NCBI RefSeq assembly: GCF_040183065.1
Contig: NC_091120.1
Span: forward strand, 168,919,488 to 168,983,487
Direction of reading: 5' to 3'
Source: Periplaneta americana
Lineage: Eukaryota; Arthropoda; Insecta; Blattodea; Blattidae
Length of the DNA: 64,000 nucleotides
The position numbers were made by a program, and so were the translations under genes. This document shows positions 8,388 through 60,706 of the stretch, piece after piece; position 1 is the first letter of the stretch, and each line of letters begins with the position of its first letter. The notes beneath the pieces are model-generated. The model worked only from the letters and a program-made list of their open reading frames with translations, had not been told where the DNA came from and searched no databases.

Positions 8388-8620
8388 ACGGCCTGGTTGG
8401 CACAGTCGGTATAGCGTTGGCCTTCTATGCCCGAGGTTGCGGGTTCGATCCCGGGCCAGGTCGATGGCATTTAAGTGTGCTTAAATGCGACAGGCTCATG
8501 TCAGTAGATTTATTGGCATGTGAAAGAACTCCTGCGGGACAAAATTCCGGCACACCGGCAACGCTGATATAACCTCGGCAGTTGCGAGCGTCGTTAAATA
8601 AAACGTAACATTTTTTTTTA
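8388..8620 (+). mobile_element. tRNA-derived SINE (family D)
   Basis: Has a complete Pol III promoter: A box TGGCACAGTCGG and B box GGGTTCGATCCC, followed by a body with GGCATTTAAGTGTGCTTAAA and ACAAAATTCCGGCACACCGG, ending GTTAAATAAAACGTAAC plus a T run. A second copy is at 38927-39161. Confidence 0.88.
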
Positions 8621-19811: not shown

Positions 19812-19883
19812 GCCTCCTTAGCTCAGTGGCAGAGCACTGGTCTTGTAAACCAGGGGTCGTGAGTTCAAACCTCACAGGGGGCA
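19812..19883 (+). tRNA. tRNA-Thr (anticodon UGU)
   Basis: Perfect cloverleaf: acceptor GCCTCCT/AGGGGGC (one G-U), D arm GCTC/GAGC, anticodon arm CTGGT/ACCAG with the canonical loop CTTGTAA (U33, anticodon TGT), five-base variable loop GGGTC, T arm GTGAG/CTCAC with TTCAAAC, discriminator A. CCA is not encoded, as normal in eukaryotes. A T run starting at 19890 is a good Pol III terminator. The only ordinary host-type gene I can support in the window. Confidence 0.95.
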
Positions 19884-28463: not shown

Positions 28464-28685
28464 GTCCACACCTGTGGAGTAACGGCTAGCGCGTCTGGCC
28501 GCGAAACCAGGTGGCCCGGGTTTGATTCCCGGTCGGGGCAAGTTACTAGTTGAGGTTTTTTCCGGGGGTTTCCCTCAACCCAATATGAGCAAATGCTGGG
28601 TAACTATCGGTGCTGGACCCCGGACTCATTTCACCGGCATTATCATCTTCATTTCATTCAGACGCTAAATAACCTGAGATGTTGA

Positions 28686-28757
<72 letters not shown>

Positions 28758-52349: not shown

Positions 52350-52861
52350 GAAAATGTCCGTCCTTTGAAAATGTCTGAAGAAAAGGGGAACTGTTGCGGA
52401 ACAATCGTCATCACTGGGTTAGAAGCCGAATTGCTGAAAGTCTCAAGAAGTCTGGAAAGTTTGACATTTATGAAGAAGTACATTGTATTTCATCCACTGG
52501 CTCCACCAAACGTGCCGACATCATAGCAATTGATAACAATCAAACGATTGGCTTCATAATCGATCCCACTATAAGATTTGAGGGTGCCGAATTCCAACCA
52601 CAAGAAGTAGATCTGGAAAAGAAAAGACATTATGAACCCGGCTTTCCTTATCTGGAAAAGAAATACCGCATACCCGTTTGTCGCTGGGAAGTAATTGGCT
52701 TGCTCTTTGGTGCAAGGGGCACTATATCAAGATTTTGTATCAATTTCTTTCATCGTTTCCATATCGATCTTTTGGAACTTCAAGATATAGCCATTAATGT
52801 TTTAAGACATTCCTTGTTAATTGTAAATAACCATCTGTACAGCTCTATATATGAAAAATAA
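52350..52861 (+). pseudogene. LINE C-terminus with restriction-like endonuclease
   Basis: Frame of 155 codons from 52394: RHHWVRSRIAESLKKSGKFD, then CISSTGSTKRADIIAIDNNQ, TIGFIIDPTIRFEGAEFQPQ, EVDLEKKRHYEP, and VIGLLFGARGTISRFCINFF. The layout RH-x-x-V, then R-A-D...I-D-P-T-I-x-FE...K-x-x-Y is that of the C-terminal restriction-like endonuclease of R2/NeSL-type LINEs (PD-(D/E)-x-K fold; here the P of PD is A). No stop within the domain, ending naturally at 52861. The reverse transcriptase is lost by 5' truncation. Followed by TAAAATAAAATAAA-type tail. Confidence 0.8.
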
Positions 52862-52995
52862 ATTATTCATGTCGAGGATAGCTGCCCCCAAAAAATAAAT
52901 TAAATTAAAATAAAATAAAAATAAAATTTAAATTTAAAATAGAATATTGTTGATCTACAATTAATTTAGGTGCTGTTACCGCTCGGTGGGCAGCT

Positions 52996-53120
52996 ATCCT
53001 TTTTCGATTCTTCTCTCTGGTACGTTCAACCAGAGGTCCCGGGATCGATACCCGGCCCCCGAACAATTTTTCCCTTGAAATTATTCAAATCTGCTTTACA
53101 CGGAGCTTCACCTGAAAGAC
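52996..53120 (+). pseudogene. tRNA-like family A, 3' half only
   Basis: Contains GGTACGTTCAACCAGAGGTC, the T arm CCGGG-ATCGATA-CCCGG and CAATTTTTCCC, as in the copies at 53378 and 57125. The 5' half is replaced by unrelated sequence. The downstream flank (GAAATTATTCAAATCTGCTT, GAAAGACTAGATTTGCAT) is shared with 57361-57430. Confidence 0.75.
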
Positions 53121-53274
53121 TAGATTTGCATAATATATACGTCACTGTGTATATTCTCAACAAATCATAAAGATATTGGAACTTTATATTTTATTTTTGG
53201 TGCCTGAATGCGGATTCGATCCTAAATCAAGAGCCCGATTGCCTTTCTCACTACAGAAAATCACAATTCCAAGT

Positions 53275-53377
53275 CCACACAGAGATTGTGTGCACTCGAT
53301 GTGGGTCTCTGGCGTTTCGTCAGCCCACGCGAGTTGTGTGGATATAAAAGGGAAGAGTTGAGACGGTGTCGAGTGTA
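53275..53377 (+). repeat. Conserved 5' flank of tRNA-like family A
   Basis: CACAGAGATTGTGTGCACTC, GTGGGTCTCTGGCGTTTCGT and ACGCGAGTTGTGTGGATATA recur in reverse at 57202-57305 upstream of the other family A copy. So the repeat unit is larger than the tRNA-like part and does not start at it, unlike a SINE. Confidence 0.8.
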
Positions 53378-53453
53378 GTTCCCGGGTAGCTCAGTTGGCA
53401 GAGCCCTGGTACGTTCAACCAGAGGTCCCGGGTTCGATACCCGGCACCGGAAC
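53378..53453 (+). tRNA. tRNA-like sequence, family A (anticodon position GTT)
   Basis: Near-complete cloverleaf: extended acceptor GTTCC/GGAAC, A box TAGCTCAGTTGG in a normal D arm (GCTC/GAGC), anticodon stem CTGGT/ACCAG, T arm CCGGG-TTCGATA-CCCGG with B box, then CAATTTTT as a Pol III terminator. The acceptor has internal mismatches (C opposite C, G opposite A). The loop is ACGTTCA: position 33 is C instead of the universal U, so normal decoding is unlikely. Conserved flanks on both sides. Probably a Pol III-competent tRNA-like RNA or pseudogene. Confidence 0.65.
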
Positions 53454-54023
53454 AATTTTTCCCTTGAAATTATTCTTCTCTCTCTTGTCTATGATCTTAC
53501 TTCAGCTGGAATACTGACATATTGTATTCTGGTAAAATATTAGGGGAGGCACGGCGTTCCTTGCTTCCCCTGAAAATCCGCCGCTGAAAAAACTGCATTT
53601 TAGTAAGGGTTCCCGCAGATTACAGTTTGAAATACGCGATATATTTATCATTCGATCCATGGAGTCGCTCTCGCTCTTAAACAGAAAAGGATGAGACGGG
53701 TGAACAAGAAAATGGCATGTTCGTAATGAGAAACTAGGACATATGTACGAGCAGCTGTATCAAGCTCGACCTTTCAGAAATACGACACGGGCTCCTCCTC
53801 TGGGTTCATTTACACCGCATCAAGGCTCTTACACAAGCCCGTCATTGATTCCTACATACAGATACTAATTCCGTTCTTGGAAAGGATTATCTGATTTACT
53901 TACGGTTCGGGCGTCAACGTCGTGAGGCCTACGTTCTTACTATTCATTCGTTACTTGGTTGGTTGCTACCAGAAAAATGTTTCGCATTCGAGGGCATTTC
54001 CTTCGAGCGAAGAGCTCTCTAAA

Positions 54024-55020
54024 ACCTCGTTCCCACTTTTCAAGTAACTTGAATTCAAGTCACTTGATTCGACGAACTTGAAAAGTGTGAACTATGTTTC
54101 AAGTTGACTTCAAGTCAAGTAACGGCTTGAATTCAAGTTTCAAGTGAACTTGAATCCCTTTCTACTTTTTACTCGACTTGAAAGGACACTTGAAACAACT
54201 TGAAGAGTGTGAACGTCACTTGATAACTTGAATTCGAGGAGAAAAGCGGGGGAATTTAAATTAACAGCTGTTTTAAGAGCGTTAAATTAACAGCTGAGTG
54301 TTTTTCTGTTCTACTGGGAACGTGAAAATAATAGGAAACAATAGGAAGTGAAATAATGACCAAATATTAGAGTTTCTTAAGTTGTATAAGACTTACGAAG
54401 GCCTTTGGATTATAGAAACTGCATAGTTTCGTGACAGAAATGCAAAGGAAGCTGCCAAGGAAGGAAGAGTTCATTGAAAATTGAATAGCAGAGATTTTTA
54501 ACATGGAACACAGATGATATATGAAAGACAATTAAAAACCATTAAACTGTAGATAGAGAAGAAGTGAGGAAGATAGGAGGGATTAGAAGAGCGTTGCTTG
54601 AAGGGACGACATTTATCGGCCGAAACTGGCATGGTTCAATGTGGCTGATAGATTTTTTTTTTTGGGACTGTAACAGCTTCAAGATAATCATTTTCAATTA
54701 TGGTAAATCAAACCTGCTTATATTTTATTACATTTACATTAAGAATTATTAAATCTGCTTGAAAATTTCACTTATTCTATTTGTAATGGTCAGTGGTCGT
54801 GTATTTCTCTTACTAATCTAATTCCTAACCCATACTGAACAACGCGTCTTCAATTTCTTCAATATATTTATCATTTCCCTGGCACGGAGGCTTGCTACTA
54901 CAGAAATTCCTAATTGCACAACATCCATGGACGCCATTTTATCCTACTGGAAAACAAAATAACTTGAATATGTCTGAACTGCGACTTGAATTCAGGTTAT
55001 TTTAAAAGTGTGAACGAGGC
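54024..55020. mobile_element. TIR element with dense ACTTGAA/TTCAAGT array
   Basis: Inverted ends ACCTCGTTCCCACTTTTCAA (left) and GCCTCGTTCACACTTTTAAA (inward from right), bordered by TAAA. Within 54040-54240 the words CTTGAA, TTCAAG, ACTTGA and CAAGT occur about twenty times in both orientations; one or two also sit at the right end (54962-54995). The interior has no recognised ORF. About 1 kb, non-autonomous. Confidence 0.75.
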
Positions 55021-55462
55021 TTAAACCACGTTAACGAGCGAGAGTCGCTTCAAGCACCCAGAAATCATTTAAGTTTTTACTCGGAAGAGCACACAATCTA
55101 CAGTACTCCTTACTGTGGCTTAATGAATTAGCTAGGGATAAAAGTGATGCCATGTTGGTATCACTTGTGAGATACAGACCTGTCTTCGGACAGTTCACTA
55201 AACACCAAACAAGATGTTCTGTGAGAATGTGAAGTATAAAGTAGGCCTAATATAATATTTATGTTGGTTCTGACTTGCCATTATATTTACCACAATTTCT
55301 ACTCAACTTGATATTTTTCTCGTTTTTTTAATGTTTTGTCTAAAGTAGGCGAAAGTATATAAAGATTAGAAGAAAGAAAGTATACATCTTGATTACACAA
55401 CTTTTAACACTATATCACTTCGGAATGTGTATTATATGTCTTTCTCGTGTTAAATTCTATCG
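55021..55462. other. No recognised gene; repeat fragments
   Basis: About 55152-55195 is a reverse fragment of the repeat at 46455. At 55355, AAAGTATATAAAGATTAGAA matches 9578. Nothing else. Confidence 0.5.
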
Positions 55463-55469
55463 TACCTGG

Positions 55470-55504
55470 TTAACATGTTTCGACCTGTTATTGGCCTTCT
55501 TCAG
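55470..55504 (-). ncRNA. Hammerhead-like motif, left arm
   Basis: Minus strand: CTGAAGA, A, stem GGCC-AATAACA-GGTC, GAAAC, then ATGTTAACC. CTGAAGA fits CUGANGA and GAAAC the second core strand; stem II pairs four base pairs. One extra A precedes stem II, and stem III is not obvious, so cleavage competence is uncertain. Position near the Penelope terminus is as expected. Confidence 0.5.
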
Positions 55505-55732
55505 AACTGGTTGTTGCTGGTCTTGGCGCCTTTTGTTTTGTTTCCTATAGGAGTGTGTTTGTGTAGTGTAATGTAGCGTCAAAGACTGTGTGTGTTCAGA
55601 AATTGAGTTGTGTGTTGAGAATTTCATTTGGATGTGTTTTTGTGTGTCTGTATATTTTGTATTGTTCTAGTGTGTTTAGTTTCTGGCTTTTTGGTTGGAT
55701 GTGTAGAATTTCCATGTCTGTGTTGATGTTTC

Positions 55733-55984
55733 TGTGACACCTGCAACAACTTCTACATAGGACAGACAGGCAGATCATTTCAAACACGTTACAAAGAACA
55801 CATCACAGCCATAACAAAATTACAAAACACTTCCACATATGCAGAACACATCACAAATGCTAACCACACCTGCAGAGACATTAACACAGACATGGAAATT
55901 CTACACATCCAACCAAAAAGCCAGAAACTAAACACATTAGAACAATACGAAATATACAGGCACACAAAAACACATCCAAATTAA
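55733..55984 (+). pseudogene. GIY-YIG endonuclease domain of a Penelope-like element
   Basis: 83 codons and a stop: CDTCNNFYIGQTGRSFQTRY, KEHITAITKLQNTSTYAEHI, then MEILHIQPKSQKLNTLEQYE and IYRHTKTHPN. FYIGQTGRSFQTRYKEHI has the YIG, G and catalytic R of the GIY-YIG fold; E in TLEQYE fits the metal-binding glutamate. C-D-x-C is the Penelope linker. The N-terminal reverse transcriptase is absent. The inverted copy (minus, 55787 to 55596) has K for E in EQYKIY but is otherwise close. Confidence 0.9.
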
Positions 55985-56100
55985 ATTCTCAACACACAAC
56001 TCAATTTCAGAACACACACACTCTTTGACTCCACATTCACTAACAAACACACCCCCACAGGAATCAAAACAAAAGGCGCCAAGACCAGCAATAACCAGTT

Positions 56101-56135
56101 CTGAAGAAGGTCAATAACAAGTCGAAACATGTTAA
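56101..56135 (+). ncRNA. Hammerhead-like motif, right arm
   Basis: Mirror copy: CTGAAGA, A, GGTC-AATAACA-AGTC, GAAAC. Stem II is weakened by substitutions relative to the left arm. Core strands intact. Confidence 0.45.
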
Positions 56136-56142
56136 CCAGGTA

Positions 56143-56234
56143 CCCGGGTCCTTGGTTCTACGTACCAAGCGCTCTCACCATTGAGCTACGCCCGAGTTCA
56201 ATCCACAGCACCGGACCGAACTCCCCTCCTCCAG
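56143..56234 (-). pseudogene. tRNA-like family B, 5' part, arm of a foldback
   Basis: Minus strand carries the leader GGTGCTGTGGATTGAACTCG, D arm and anticodon arm (CTTGGT-ACGTAGA-ACCAAG) up to GGACCCGG, where Penelope sequence begins. It pairs with 56253-56349 as a foldback around an 18-nt loop. Confidence 0.8.
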
Positions 56235-56291
56235 GCCACTAAGGGAAAAACACTGCAGGAGGGGAGTTAGATCCGGTGCTGTGGATAGGAC

Positions 56292-56364
56292 TTCGGCGTA
56301 GCTCAATGGTGAGAGCGCTTGGTACGTAGAACCAAGGACCCGGGTTCGATCCCCGGCGCCGGAG
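56292..56364 (+). tRNA. tRNA-like sequence, family B (anticodon position GTA)
   Basis: Full cloverleaf: acceptor TTCGGCG/CGCCGGA (one G-U), D arm GCTC/GAGC, anticodon stem TTGGT/ACCAA extended by a C-G pair, loop ACGTAGA, T arm CCGGG-TTCGATC-CCCGG (B box), T run ATTTTTC directly after. The loop equals the Tyr loop in its last five bases but has AC instead of CU at 32-33. Its leader is repeated in the inverted arm. Could be expressed by Pol III; decoding is doubtful. Confidence 0.7.
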
Positions 56365-57124
56365 CGAATTTTTCTTCTCTAATATTAAATGTTTTCCATG
56401 CCAACAGGATGCAATACTTTTGCCGAAACTTAGAACTTCAAACTTCGAGTTTGATTATCAAATGAAGTGTACTACAGTGGCGGCCGCTCTTTATGTGCAG
56501 CAGACAGTTAATTTTCTGTCCCTAGCATAATCTTATTTAACTTTCCTTAGTTTTACGCGCTCCAATGCACGAAGAATCGTGAACTCCTATTAACTATTCT
56601 ATAGCTTGTGCGTCGTCTGCAAGTCCCAGTCGGTATCGCAATGAACAGCAGTGAAATGCAGCGAATCTTGCACATGCGCACAGAGGAGCTTACATTCGCT
56701 TGATGTGTGACGTAATCTATGGTTTACCATTATTAACAGTGTGAGCTACAAAAGCAAGCAGCGAGTTCGCATTGGCGTTCTATAAAATCTACAACCAATC
56801 AGGAGCGAGTGACTATTTGTAGATGGGTTACAATCTACAAATAGTCACTCACGGACTCTGCAAACAACGCGGACGTCACGACATCTCTGAGGAGCAGTAG
56901 TGTACTATTTGTGAGTTTGTTCTATTTACAAGTCCTGATCACAGAAGGTAGGGACGACAATTTTATTGTTATGTCATAGGCCCCCCCCCCAAACTTATCT
57001 GAACTTTTTTTTTTTCTATTGACGTTAGAAAATATTAAATTCAAAAGATCTTTTTTGCATTTGTTTAGGATTAAGTTTATGTGCTTAAAATGGTGAATTA
57101 ATGAATAATTTCAAGGGAAAAATT
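56365..57124. other. No recognised gene; internal hairpin
   Basis: GTGAGTGACTATTTGTAGAT-type inverted words occur at about 56800-56850 (CAATCAGGAGCGAGTGACTA and its partner TAGTCACTC), forming a hairpin. CAGTGGCGGCCGCTC at 56474 resembles a hAT terminus. No ORF. Confidence 0.4.
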
Positions 57125-57201
57125 GTTCCGGGGCCGGGTATCGATCCCGAGACCTCTGGTTGAACGTACCAGCGCTCTTTCCAACTGAGCTACCCGGGAA
57201 C
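57125..57201 (-). tRNA. tRNA-like sequence, family A (anticodon position GTT), copy 2
   Basis: Minus strand: GTTCC/GGAAC, A box TAGCTCAGTTGG, anticodon arm CTGGT-ACGTTCA-ACCAG, T arm CGGG-ATCGATA-CCCG with one B-box change, then CAATTTTTCCC. Same loop and flanks as 53378-53453. Acceptor again has a C-C mismatch between GTTCC and GGG, shared by both copies. Confidence 0.6.
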
Positions 57202-57440
57202 TCCACCCGACACCGTCTCAACTTTTCCCTTTATATCCACACAACTCGCGTGGGCTGACGAAACGCCAGAGACCCACATCGAGTGCACACAATCTCTGTG
57301 TGACTTGGAATAGTGGTTTTCTGTTAACGTACACAGTGACGTATATATTATGCAAATCTAGTCTTTTTTCCTTTGAAATTATTCAAATCTGCTTTACAGG
57401 GAGCCTTACCTGAAAGACTAGATTTGCATGGTGAATTAAT
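57202..57440 (-). repeat. Flank of tRNA-like family A, rearranged
   Basis: 57202-57305 matches 53275-53377 in reverse. 57330-57430 (GTGACGTATATATTATGCAA, GAAAGACTAGATTTGCAT) matches the sequence downstream of the copy at 53013 but in a different order, showing rearrangement of the unit. Confidence 0.65.
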
Positions 57441-57746
57441 GTCTTCAGATCATGTGTCTGGACTATAATAGGCATATTTATATTTAATTTTTGGATGTAT
57501 AAGAATTTCTATTTCTAATTTCCTTATCTGAGGAATGGAAGCACTGTAATGTTTCTTTTGTAACAGCCTGTACTCATGTGTTAGAAGTCTGCAGATGTTC
57601 AGGCCGCCACTTGGAGAAATATGAATAACATACCTCACAACAATGCAGAAAACAGAAAAGTGATCCCAGTATAATGTGTAAACTTAAAGACGAGATTAAA
57701 TAAAATAATTAGACGATGAAAGAGTAATGGAACGGAGAAATATTCT

Positions 57747-57818
57747 CTCCGGCGCCGGGATTTGAACCCGGGTTTTCAGCTCTACGTGCTGATGCTTTAT
57801 CCACTAAGCCACACCGGA
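57747..57818 (-). tRNA. tRNA-like sequence, family C (anticodon position GTA), copy 1
   Basis: Minus strand, 72 nt: acceptor TCCGGTG/CGCCGGA (one G-U), D arm GCTT/AAGC, anticodon stem TCAGC/GCTGA, loop ACGTAGA, T arm CCGGG-TTCAAAT-CCCGG. A and B boxes fit (TGGCTTAGTGG, GGGTTCAAATCCC). The terminator is weak (ATATTTC). C33 instead of U33. Flank GATGAAAGAGTAATGGAACG shared with copy 2. Confidence 0.65.
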
Positions 57819-58128
57819 TACTACCCCGGCGTCGGACATAATTGTCTCTGATTAAGTTCCAACTCTTGGGTTCCCTCTAGTGGCCGCCCTCTGCACTACG
57901 TCATAGATATCTATGAACGTAGGACCGAAGTCCACACATGTGCTGAGGTGCACTCGTTATGAGTGACTAGTTGGCCGGGATCCGACGGAATAAGCGCCGT
58001 CTTAAATCACGAAGTGATTTACGCATATCATATATATTATTTTAATGTACCGAAGTACATATGATATTTCCATGCAGATATTCTGCGTCATCATACGATG
58101 AAAGAGTAATGGAACGGAGAAAAATTCT

Positions 58129-58199
58129 CTCCGGCGCGGGATTTGAACCCGGGTTTTCATCTCTACGTGCTGATGCTTTATCCACTAAGCCACACCTGA
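58129..58199 (-). pseudogene. tRNA-like family C, copy 2, decayed
   Basis: As copy 1 but with an acceptor mismatch (TCAGGTG), one anticodon-stem mismatch (TCAGC/GATGA) and a missing C in the T-arm/acceptor junction. The loop ACGTAGA is unchanged and the T run is stronger (ATTTTTC). It lies between the arms of an inverted repeat. Confidence 0.75.
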
Positions 58200-58237
58200 T
58201 ACTACCCCGGCGTCGGACTCTTTCATCGTATGATGAC

Positions 58238-59084
58238 CAGTGGCGTAGCGTCAATGTAAGCTAAAAAGCTTAGCTTCCCCAGTTAATAATAATTTCATAA
58301 TAAACCTGCAGTTTATGGAGAAAATTATTTATTAATTTTAATAGAATTTATATTTACGCGTTAAATATTGTGATGCGGCAGCTCAGGATTATTTGTGATG
58401 CAGCAGTAAACAAGAAGCCTGCACACACCAGCTTCCAGACTGGTTTCTTCTGTGTAATCCACCCCGCAGATTTTCCATCCCTTTCTAACTAAACTACCCT
58501 AGTCGCAAGGCTCGCAAAGAAGCTAGCTTTAACATTTAAAATAAGTACGAGTAGTTTCCGAGTTATCCCTTTTCGTCAATTGTGTTCAGTTGAAGTGTTA
58601 GTGTGCATTGTGGCTGATATAATAAATAATGAGAGAAATAACAGTTCCTGACACTAATTTACTTGAATTTTTTAAGACAATTGTATTATCAAGACTGACT
58701 TACGAACAAAAGTATGATTTAAAAAACAAATGACCGACTCCCTTGCTGTCAATGAAGGACACAACCAAAAGACAGACGCGTACTTACGTAATGATACTAA
58801 TACTGTGATTTCTGTAAGTATGACAGGGAGTGAGCTAATGTCATACGTATACGTGTCTATTTGTTAAGAGATATGTGTAAACCGTGAAATCGTATTTTGT
58901 TACGTCTCATTTGAGGTCATGCCTTATTGGTGTTACTTACGATGTTCCAACCAATCTTCGACTGCTGACTTGAAATTGACTACTGTTTATTTTAAGACTG
59001 TATTTTTGTAATACGTTTCCTCATATTGCATGAAAGACAACTTGAATTAGCTTCCCCTGCTCAAAATTTCATGCTACGCCACTG
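58238..59084 (+). mobile_element. hAT transposon with exact 8-bp duplication
   Basis: Ends CAGTGGCGTAGC (58238) and GCTACGCCACTG (59084), flanked by ATGATGAC at 58230-58237 and 59085-59092. The subterminal word AGCTTCCCC repeats inverted near both ends. An inner frame from 58629 (MREITVPDTNLLEFFKTIVL, SRLTYEQKYDLKNK) may be the N-terminus of its transposase. 847 bp, deleted. Confidence 0.93.
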
Positions 59085-59155
59085 ATGATGACGCAGAATA
59101 TCTGCATGGAAATATATGTACTTCGGTACATTAAAATAATATATAAAATAATTAG

Positions 59156-59820
59156 AGTTTATATTTCATATGATATCTTCAGGAAGGTAAGTTTCATATA
59201 AAAAAATTCTGTTAGCACTGTTATGTAGTTTTGTTGATGTATGCATGTGTTTCTGTACGAGAGAGAAGCAGACCTACAGTTCAAGTCCTATACAACTCGG
59301 TCCGAAACATCGTGGATGTGGATGTAACATTGTAGGAAACATGCTCTCGAAAATAAAATATTCATATTCCGATATACTGCACCACGGTCAAGCCATGAGA
59401 TAAATGATGTCCCCCGTAACTCCGTTGTATGGGGATTCTAGGGTTTTGCTTTGCTTCCTCAAGGAAACGGTTCTCACTCCGCCTATGCTTATGGTAATTA
59501 TTAAACTTTCCTGTAAAACTGAAACGTATTGTTCATAAAATTTATTATTAGCTTATTTATATGTACAGTACTATATTTAATAAAATTTAATTAAAAGATG
59601 CTGTAGGCCTACTCCTATTCTACTCCTTCAACATTCGACAGGGGGCCTGAATGCTATTTGAATTTAAAATTATGGTTGCTGGTTGCCGAAATGGAGGAGT
59701 TCAACTCCAAAGCTATTGACAGCTTCTGCAGCAATAAAGAGCACAGCATGGACTTCACACTACGCCACTAATAAGTAGATCAACCAAACTTTAACTACTT
59801 TTTAAAGTGAATTTTCTATA
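59156..59820. other. No recognised gene
   Basis: AT-rich with a hAT-like word CTACGCCACTA at 59761. Nothing supported. Confidence 0.5.
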
Positions 59821-59989
59821 CAGGGTGTTTAAAAAATACGGGGCATAATTTCAGGTATGTATTTCCCACATGTAGACAATCAAAATAGTTCATTACAACA
59901 TGTGTCCGGAAATGCTTTATTTCCGAGTTATGGCCTTCACAACATTGAAATTCACCGGAACGTTTTTCTTTCCGCAGGTCGTTGTCATT

Positions 59990-60080
59990 ACAGAAGATGT
60001 TCAAAATGTCCACCTCCTGCTTGAATACAGACCTCACATCGATGTCTCATTGACCTGCGAACACGATCCCAAACTCCAGG
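59990..60080 (-). pseudogene. Transposase C-terminal tail of the DUF4817 element
   Basis: Minus strand, +1 frame relative to the N-terminal part: GVWDRVRRSMRHRCEVCIQA then GGGHFEHLL and stop. This is the C-terminal signature of mariner-like transposases of this group. All three catalytic aspartates lie in the deleted part between YPYHI and GVWDR. Confidence 0.8.
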
Positions 60081-60096
60081 AGTATTGCGTATGTCC

Positions 60097-60450
60097 TCAG
60101 ATATGATAAGGATACAATTGATACTCCTTCAACAGTCTCCAGACAGTCGTATGAGGAACATTGACTTGCAACGCTACCCTTCGTGTGCTGATAGAAGGAG
60201 TTATGTTCACAGCCTCCAGAATTTCCTCATGTACTTCTGGAGTTGTAGATCTTGGTCGTCCCCTTCCCAAACCAGGAGAGTTAAATTTTCCACACTCGCA
60301 CAGACGGTAATGGAGACGTACAAATATCTTCCGATCTGGACATTGTCGCTGTGGGTACCTCTCCTGGTACAACCGACGAGCCAGCGCAGCATTGCCGTCC
60401 GCCTTACCGTACATGAAGTGTATCTCTGCCAGCTCTTGATTTGAATACAT
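60097..60450 (-). CDS. DUF4817 / helix-turn-helix N-terminal part of transposase
   Basis: 117 codons from the ATG at 60450: MYSNQELAEIHFMYGKADGN, AALARRLYQERYPQRQCPDR, KIFVRLHYRLCECGKF, then GRPRSTTPEVHEEILEAV and VPHTTVWRLLKEYQLYPYHI, stop. Residues 1-50 are the DUF4817 block; GRPR is an AT-hook-like linker; residues 75-110 form the second helix-turn-helix. An upstream frame continues into the TIR without ATG. This keeps the DNA-binding half of the transposase only, so it could bind TIRs but not cut. Translation not shown. Confidence 0.75.
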   Translation of the reverse strand: MYSNQELAEIHFMYGKADGNAALARRLYQERYPQRQCPDRKIFVRLHYRLCECGKFNSPGLGRGRPRSTTPEVHEEILEAVNITPSISTRRVALQVNVPHTTVWRLLKEYQLYPYHI

Positions 60451-60706
60451 GTCGCACAGTCTAACGCCCACACAACACTGAATGTAACCTTCGCCTCGGA
60501 ATGAACTGTCAGAGTGCCCTCTTAATGTCCCCTTTGACGGCAACGACCTGCGGAAAGAAACACGTTTCGGTGAATTTCAATGTTGTGAAGGCCATAACTC
60601 GGAAATGAAGCATTTCCGGACACATGTTGTAATGAACTATTTTGATTGTCTACATGTGGGAAATACATACCTGAAATTATGCCCCGTATTTTTGAAACAC
60701 CCTGTA

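Follow-up and report, generated by a model that had tools for sequence, protein, structure and literature searches.

The short retroelements closest to the sequences treated here are of two kinds. SINEs (short interspersed nuclear elements) derived from tRNA, such as Sbg1-Sbg9 of the cockroach Blattella germanica, have a tRNA-like region with A and B boxes, no long open reading frame (ORF), target-site duplications and an end made of a simple repeat or poly(A) (PMC9191728). Animal retrozymes (PMC7229834) are tandem units of 150-450 bp with a hammerhead ribozyme, known also as circular RNA, whose target-site duplications, if present, exceed 4 bp. The element described here comes from the cockroach Periplaneta americana (contig NC_091120.1 of RefSeq assembly GCF_040183065.1) and lies in a stretch of 64,000 nucleotides, forward-strand positions 168,919,488 to 168,983,487, which I call the window and from whose first letter all coordinates below are counted. 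Its repeated unit has the promoter and target-site duplications of a SINE and has neither the order nor the tail of one; it is partly like a retrozyme, and no hammerhead was found in it. A tRNA-like region with A and B boxes, target-site duplications and the lack of a long ORF are common to the units and the cockroach SINEs; unlike those SINEs the units carry a tRNA-like sequence at the 3' end as well, with the body upstream of it, and insertions span more than one unit. With the animal retrozymes they share a length of a few hundred nucleotides, tandem copies, a predicted self-paired circle and duplications longer than 4 bp; they differ in having a tRNA-like sequence in place of the hammerhead and in that the monomers of one insertion are not identical. 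I propose that these sequences probably belong to a small family of retroposons, non-autonomous and equipped with a tRNA-type promoter, for which multi-unit RNA was the template. Such elements would be a variant of the SINE that works partly as animal retrozymes do.

The case begins with the anatomy of the unit. Self-comparison of 52900-58400 with the window, by alignment, gives the order on the strand of the tRNA-like sequence as tRNA-like, tail with a T run, body, leader, and then the next tRNA-like and its tail. There are three types, A, B and C, whose copies I number. The order is unbroken in type C, on the minus strand, where the C2 tRNA-like (58129-58199, with its own leader at 58200-58218) is followed by a first tail (58095-58128), a body of many hairpins (57838-58094), a leader (57819-57837), the C1 tRNA-like (57747-57818) and a second tail (57713-57746). 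Type A, on the plus strand, runs from A3, the 3' part of a tRNA-like from the anticodon stem on (53017-53063), through a tail composed of a T run and a small stem-loop (53064-53086), a body (53087-53347) and a leader (53348-53379) to the A1 tRNA-like (53380-53452) and a second tail (53453-53475), which is the 3' end of the insertion. The unit is thus 382-389 nt long, 382 bp separating the two tRNA-likes of type C and 389 bp those of type A, or about 290 nt without a stretch absent from A2: BLAST finds in A2 no counterpart to some 100 bp of the first A body (53151 to 53253), although 53115-53151 and the sequence from 53253 onward do match.

Three of the four loci are each a single retro-insertion, bounded by target-site duplications of 12-14 bp. 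The insertion at 53019-53471, with a partial (A3) and a whole (A1) tRNA-like, lies between 12-bp copies at 53007-53018 (ATTCTTCTCTCT, whose last CT may belong to A3) and 53472-53483. The one at 57102-57429 has a single tRNA-like, A2 (57126-57199, minus strand), with leader and body at 57200-57364, behind an inverted 5' piece; its 14-bp copies are at 57090-57103 on the 3' side (ATGGTGAATTAATG on the plus strand) and 57428-57441 on the 5' side. The third, 57713-59145, holds C2 and C1, has an inverted 5' end and is interrupted by a hAT-type element; its copies, also of 14 bp, are at 57700-57713 (ATAAAATAATTAGA on the plus strand) and 59143-59156. Among about 20,000 random pairs of flanks (the few draws less than 40 bp apart being skipped), 5, 1 and 2 reach these lengths, respectively, and part of the duplicated bases may be microhomology with the ends of the elements, as with the final ATTC of the A1 tail, which overlaps the duplication. 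At the fourth locus, B1 (leader 56257-56291, tRNA-like 56292-56364, tail 56365-56386 with an approximate 3' limit, plus strand) faces B2 (56142-56226, minus strand), a leader and truncated tRNA-like inverted relative to B1, inside whose T arm a Penelope-like element starts.

The two ends of the insertions behave differently. At the 3' end there is always a tRNA-like and its tail; A1 and A2 stop at the same base, within the limits set by microhomology, and C stops at a comparable place. A1 and A2 end in GAAATTATTC and C1 in CTCTTTCATCGT, where the SINEs have their simple repeat or poly(A), and by eye the ends lie within or next to a small stem-loop of the repeated unit (TTGAA-ATTA-TTCAA in A, TCATC-GTAT-GATGA in C). 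At the 5' end the element is inverted or cut within a tRNA-like. In A2 the inverted segment (57365-57429, plus strand) comprises tail and start of body: it matches 53067-53131 at 93.8%, while 53115-53151 matches 57366-57330 at 100%, giving a 17-nt overlap of the unit between inverted and direct segments. In C the inverted segment has an inner part (58217-58237, plus strand, the exact inverse of 58087-58107) and an outer part (59085-59145, plus strand, the inverse of 58031-58094), separated by a DNA transposon that arrived later (58238-59084) and is flanked by an 8-bp duplication of its own, ATGATGAC, the copies of which are 58230-58237 and 59085-59092; from that duplication and its ends, CAGTGGCGTAGC, I presume it to be of hAT type. 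These inverted 5' pieces, with the overlap in A2, look like products of reverse transcription from two primers. Two-primer synthesis by LINE-1 (a long interspersed nuclear element, LINE) predicts just such an overlap of inverted and direct segments. Penelope elements, too, have copies in direct and inverted arrangements, as here.

The result is that more than one unit's sequence is found in all three insertions with duplications. In A3-A1 and C2-C1 the tRNA-like, in part or whole, and its tail are present twice; in A2 the tail is present twice, once inverted. At the B locus it is the leader and most of the tRNA-like that are there twice, one of them inverted. A SINE would show head, body and tail with one head per copy. 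Here the tRNA-like is 3'-terminal in A1, A2 and C1 and each insertion has more than one tRNA-like or tail. The window's three ordinary SINE heads, at 8391, 28468 and 10010 (minus strand), which with a tRNA-Thr gene at 19812 serve as controls below, have in no case a second copy or an inverted piece within about 1 kb.

One might suppose instead a fixed dimeric SINE (tRNA-like, body, tRNA-like, tail) transcribed by RNA polymerase III (Pol III) from its first tRNA-like, with no multi-unit RNA. A3-A1 and C2-C1 have exactly that order, and a SINE of this kind, Sbg9, is reported from a cockroach (PMC9191728). Against it stands the sequence in front of the first tRNA-like: the C insertion has there a 19-nt leader and an inverted piece of tail and body, and B2 has a leader of about 30 nt. 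In both C and B2 this lies upstream of the start 11 nt before the A box that the same source gives for cockroach SINEs. I consider the dimeric SINE unlikely.

What is the tRNA-like sequence itself? A sequence-only reading had listed six. Five are called by both ARAGORN (53380-53453 and 56292-56365 on the plus strand, 57125-57199, 57747-57818 and 58129-58199 on the minus strand) and Rfam model RF00005 (42.0, 49.1, 43.2, 61.5 and 37.4 bits in the same order), four of them in a standard Rfam run and 57126-57199 only in a permissive one. The sixth, near 56143, is B2, which is truncated and inverted: it drew no match in the ARAGORN and Rfam tRNA searches, but is a real copy that breaks off once the first T-stem strand is complete, at the start of the Penelope-like element, and a profile built from the other copies matches it (56230-56141, minus strand, E 2.6e-15). 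A3, at 53017-53086 on the plus strand, had escaped that list; it is 97% identical to A2 and 96% to A1 and is likewise matched by the profile. ARAGORN labels the tRNA-likes Asn(GTT) and Tyr(GTA).

All seven copies bear out what had been said of the anticodon loop, that it opens with ACGT (ACGTTCA in all three of type A, ACGTAGA in the two each of types B and C) and that position 33, in tRNA numbering, is C in place of U. The pattern ACGTNNA with a T arm occurs three times in the window and never in 100 shuffles. Of the 21 standard cloverleaf pairs, B1 and C1 form all and A1 forms 19, and C2 has lost a T-arm base and one anticodon pair. The T run said to follow most of these sequences fails at C1, where the next letters are ATATTT, without a run of at least four T. 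A functional tRNA gene should have U33 and an intact cloverleaf. All seven copies have C33, A1 has two of its 21 pairs broken and C2 is damaged; B1 and C1 keep their 21 pairs. Real tRNA genes are ruled out by the missing U33, the broken pairs of A1 and C2 and the target-site duplications. The loss of U33 is nothing special to this family, since the ordinary SINE head at 28468, with the loop CCGCGAAA (by eye), lacks it as well.

By eye, A1, B1 and C1 have A boxes in exact agreement with TRGYNNARNNG, and against RGTTCRANTCC, the B box, C1 is exact, A1 and B1 have one mismatch each and A2 has two (consensus sequences as given in PMC9191728). From the sequence, then, an internal Pol III promoter of the tRNA type is predicted in the tRNA-likes. 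There is also, by eye, a TATATAAA-like stretch within 53340-53380, some 35-40 bp 5' of A1; a start directed by it as a TATA element would fall in the leader.

The anticodon stems differ from type to type and yet pair with themselves around one loop, as had been claimed: pairs survive changes on both sides. Between types, four of the five anticodon pairs and one D pair are altered on both sides with pairing kept; between C and A, 13 stem sites differ, five pairs having changes in both strands, and A1 still forms 19 of 21. (Pairs were listed by script, since a MAFFT alignment has a gap within the anticodon stem and its column structure was therefore set aside.) With random bases, the observed pairing is reached in 250 of 100,000 trials for C to A, 6 for C to B and 6,534 for B to A. 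Restricting the changes to transitions makes the nulls weaker: with G-U taken as a pair, the observed pairing is reached in 40,467, 2,775 and 58,654 of 100,000, respectively, and with Watson-Crick pairs alone 837 of 50,000 trials reach it for C to A and 100 for C to B. Selection on the structure of the cloverleaf is likely, judging by the sequences of three types. The earlier proposal of selection on RNA structure over decoding survives to that extent, as the paired two-sided changes make it likely, and is tempered by the small number of types and by the transition nulls. The tRNA-Thr gene at 19812 has exactly the anticodon stem of type A, so the types might have come from different tRNAs. The loop, leader, acceptor and tail motifs they have in common count against this.

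The sequence-only reading went further, to a family of free tRNA-like RNA genes selected for some role other than decoding, such as contacts between ACGT loops. The two-sided changes around a constant loop are what one would expect of it, but descent alone can account for that constancy, three loci are retro-insertions with target-site duplications, and three copies (C2, B2, A3) are decayed or truncated. Free genes are not supported, both C copies lying within one insertion and the A flank being part of a retroposon unit, and the idea of a family selected in this way is extremely improbable. It was right that these sequences are not ordinary SINE heads; the long conserved 5' flank of A is the body and leader of the retroposon unit.

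Complementarity of the leader to the tail and to the tRNA-like's 3' half is clear in types A and B and weak in C. When scored as RNA, the leader pairs with the acceptor's 3' strand, with the T arm and with the tail. Among 200 shuffled leaders, none pairs as well in A1, A2, B1 and C2 and three do in C1, compared with 33 for the tRNA-Thr control. When the sequences are folded, 31, 31, 30, 10 and 17 leader bases (A1, A2, B1, C1, C2) pair with the 3' half or tail, and none in any of the four controls; no shuffled leader of 200 is as stable for A1, A2 or B1, and for the controls the numbers are 22 (tRNA-Thr), 4 (8391), 44 (28468) and 106 (10076). Given this complementarity, two folds compete, the cloverleaf and a rod. 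The predicted energies, in kcal/mol, of rod and forced cloverleaf are -60.8 and -38.1 for A1, -57.4 and -45.1 for B1, and -46.8 and -41.1 for C1, a gain of 22.7, 12.3 and 5.7, respectively, and of zero for tRNA-Thr. Descent is the most likely reason for the persistence of the ACGT loop, whose arm is paired in both modelled folds of B1 and C1; in A1 the predicted rod opens the anticodon arm.

A foldback of DNA would also have such arms. The leader and tail might be the terminal inverted repeats of an element like a MITE (miniature inverted-repeat transposable element), moving as DNA only, with the tRNA-like a captured passenger. There is some inverted complementarity at each locus, and its mismatches show no significant preference for G-U. 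But the ends of the insertions are not inverses of each other, the 3' end being tail and the 5' end truncated or an inverted inner piece, and the duplications of 12-14 bp are beyond the usual lengths for MITEs. The foldback is very improbable.

If multi-unit RNA is copied, is it circular? Folded as circles, the C unit has a z score of -5.4 and the A unit -4.7 (60 shuffles), or -5.35 for A without 53148-53246, whereas 14 control stretches, each shuffled 20 times, range from -2.65 to +2.03. The C body and tail (58128-57838) fold with z -5.24, no shuffle of 200 being as stable, and 58128-57839 is the lowest in a systematic scan in which none of 214 windows scores so low (with 8 shuffles to a window and a floor of 3 kcal/mol on the standard deviation); by eye its body has three stem-loops tipped with TTCG. 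The A body with its tRNA-like is equalled or bettered by 6 of the 214, and 53247-53379 has z -2.55, with one shuffle of 200 as stable.

The low circular z scores of C and A are what would be expected of a retrozyme that contains a tRNA, a circular RNA in which the tRNA-like replaces the hammerhead in marking or making the ends of units, and in which copying round the circle gives more than one unit from a fixed 3' start. The spacings of 382 and 389 bp fall within the range of about 150-450 nt, with at most two tRNA-likes per insertion, and the excess over one unit in all three insertions with duplications suits this idea, as do the tandem units, circular RNA and duplications noted above for animal retrozymes. 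For plant retrozymes a circular template has been proposed to yield cDNAs of differing length (PMC4918200). The units, however, contain no hammerhead by Rfam or by core pattern (52800-59300), a search in which the pattern matches only the adjoining Penelope-like element and in which Rfam missed those cores too, so that minimal forms could escape; no Rfam ribozyme family is reported in them. A further difficulty is that two passes of one circle would give identical copies. Of 70 sites, 3 distinguish A3 from A1 within their common insertion, and at two of the 3 A3 has the base of A2 and A1 another; B1 and B2 also differ. (The differences between C1 and C2 are mostly changes in C2 and do not decide between circle and array.) These differences make it more likely that the RNA came from distinct monomers, either because an array was transcribed or because the template was switched, than that one circle was read twice. 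A circular RNA is possible, with the monomer differences speaking against it, and a retrozyme of this sort is doubtful.

I return to the retroposon copied from multi-unit RNA, and suggest how it might work. The tRNA-like would be kept as an internal Pol III promoter in the DNA and as a folding module in the RNA, not for decoding. Transcripts starting just 5' of a tRNA-like would lack the leader and fold as cloverleaves. In RNA that contains a leader, the leader would bind both the tail and the tRNA-like's 3' half, converting cloverleaf to rod, and the rod could protect full-length RNA from the enzymes that process tRNA. The RNA that is copied would be multi-unit. The reverse transcriptase of a partner LINE or Penelope-like element would start some 20-35 nt beyond the last tRNA-like, near the small stem-loop, and the inverted 5' ends would result from two-primer synthesis. 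A bolder version, which I hold to be rather unlikely, is a retrozyme-like class in which a tRNA-like module has replaced the self-cleaving ribozyme. Its RNA, of 290-390 nt, would resemble a viroid, pair mostly with itself and perhaps be circular; it would have its own Pol III promoter as a cloverleaf, hide it in the rod, and spread by reverse transcription of more than one unit. If the proposal is true genome-wide, there are SINE-like parasites that move as multi-unit RNAs, their tRNA-like switching between promoter-bearing cloverleaf and rod. That would link tRNA-type SINEs with retrozymes, and would make for a simple genomic test: the number of tRNA-likes per insertion, the 3' end, arrays and circular RNA.

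Several observations weigh against the multi-unit retroposon and its switch. The evidence comes from four loci in a single window, and the B locus yielded no target-site duplication, the longest string common to its flanks being 6. The bodies of A, B and C have no significant similarity to one another (192, 59 and 157 of 500 shuffles do as well). In type C the folding test is weak, with 19 of 200 shuffled leaders as stable for C1 and 39 for C2, and the pairing score of C2 is due to the exact 21-bp inverted tail and not to the leader. The control at 8391, which has no leader pairing, is still more stable than most of its shuffles (4 of 200). The match of leader to type is not strict: with the arm of B1 the leader of C1 scores 42, with that of C1 only 39. 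Since leaders pair with the arms of other types, there is no proof of type-by-type change in concert. Leader-arm mismatches in A1, B1 and C1 are G-U in 14 cases and A-C in 6 (p 0.12), not a significant excess, so a DNA inverted repeat and RNA pairing are indistinguishable by this measure and part of the complementarity may be the former. Finally, the A body by itself is ordinary, 33 of 214 windows scoring as low or lower.

Two other known systems invite comparison. Circularly permuted tRNA genes (PMC3978253) resemble these units in that tRNA units in tandem also allow the reading 3' half, spacer, 5' half; the insertions here differ in ending with a complete tRNA-like. Penelope-like elements with minimal hammerheads (mentioned in PMC7229834) differ from the units here, which have no ORF of at least 110 amino acids. 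Indeed, there is no stop-to-stop ORF of that length in 52862-60024, and hence no reverse transcriptase with GIY-YIG such as a Penelope element should have. No such unit is described in the titles and abstract openings retrieved from an open-access library, a search that did not take in SINE databases such as Repbase, and six loop strings are absent from the open-access text searched. The ACGT-loop pattern occurs at one locus in viral contigs, where ARAGORN finds no tRNA in 2832 bases, and at 43 loci in genome contigs. Nine of the latter were run in ARAGORN, giving six tRNA-Ser, two tmRNA and one without a call (L043), and on these nine the matches in other collections are taken as unrelated. 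Four further exact patterns have no match in viral contigs, nor did blastn match C to plasmids or A to phages.

The surroundings of the insertions are themselves rich in mobile sequence. Just upstream of A3-A1, at 52379-52861 on the plus strand, is the remnant of a non-LTR retrotransposon (one without long terminal repeats) with an R2-type endonuclease domain (matching an R2 protein in PDB, E 0.0011, and nothing in Pfam). An R2-type LINE inserted into the tRNA-like at 53017 is excluded, because the 12-bp duplication shows the A3-A1 element to have landed beside the remnant. An endonuclease that targets the ACGT loop site-specifically was dropped, that duplication putting the insertion next to the remnant. 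A block to reverse transcription at a methylated G26 would explain the start of A3 at nucleotide 27, but this idea has one copy to stand on and was not used.

The Penelope-like element beside B2 (55462-56143) is a foldback with inverted arms of about 270 bp (93% identical). It has hammerhead-like cores, CTGAAGA...CGAAA, at 55504 on the minus strand and 56101 on the plus strand, and a middle that by eye alone is GIY-YIG-like; the reference with which it was compared has two stops. The ordinary SINE used as a control has two copies, at approximately 28468-28740 (plus) and 10082-9800 (minus), with a head, a body containing GGTTGAGGTTTTTTCCGGGG and a tail, and by eye the loop lacking U33 already mentioned. 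The head at 8391-8462 (plus, 27.4 bits with the tRNA model) is a third and distinct one of tRNA type. At 54022-54139 there are short overlapping inverted repeats on AACTTGAA/TTCAAGTT with a tandem period of 15 bp, and on the minus strand at 60097-60576 a reading frame with the helix-turn-helix domain DUF4817.

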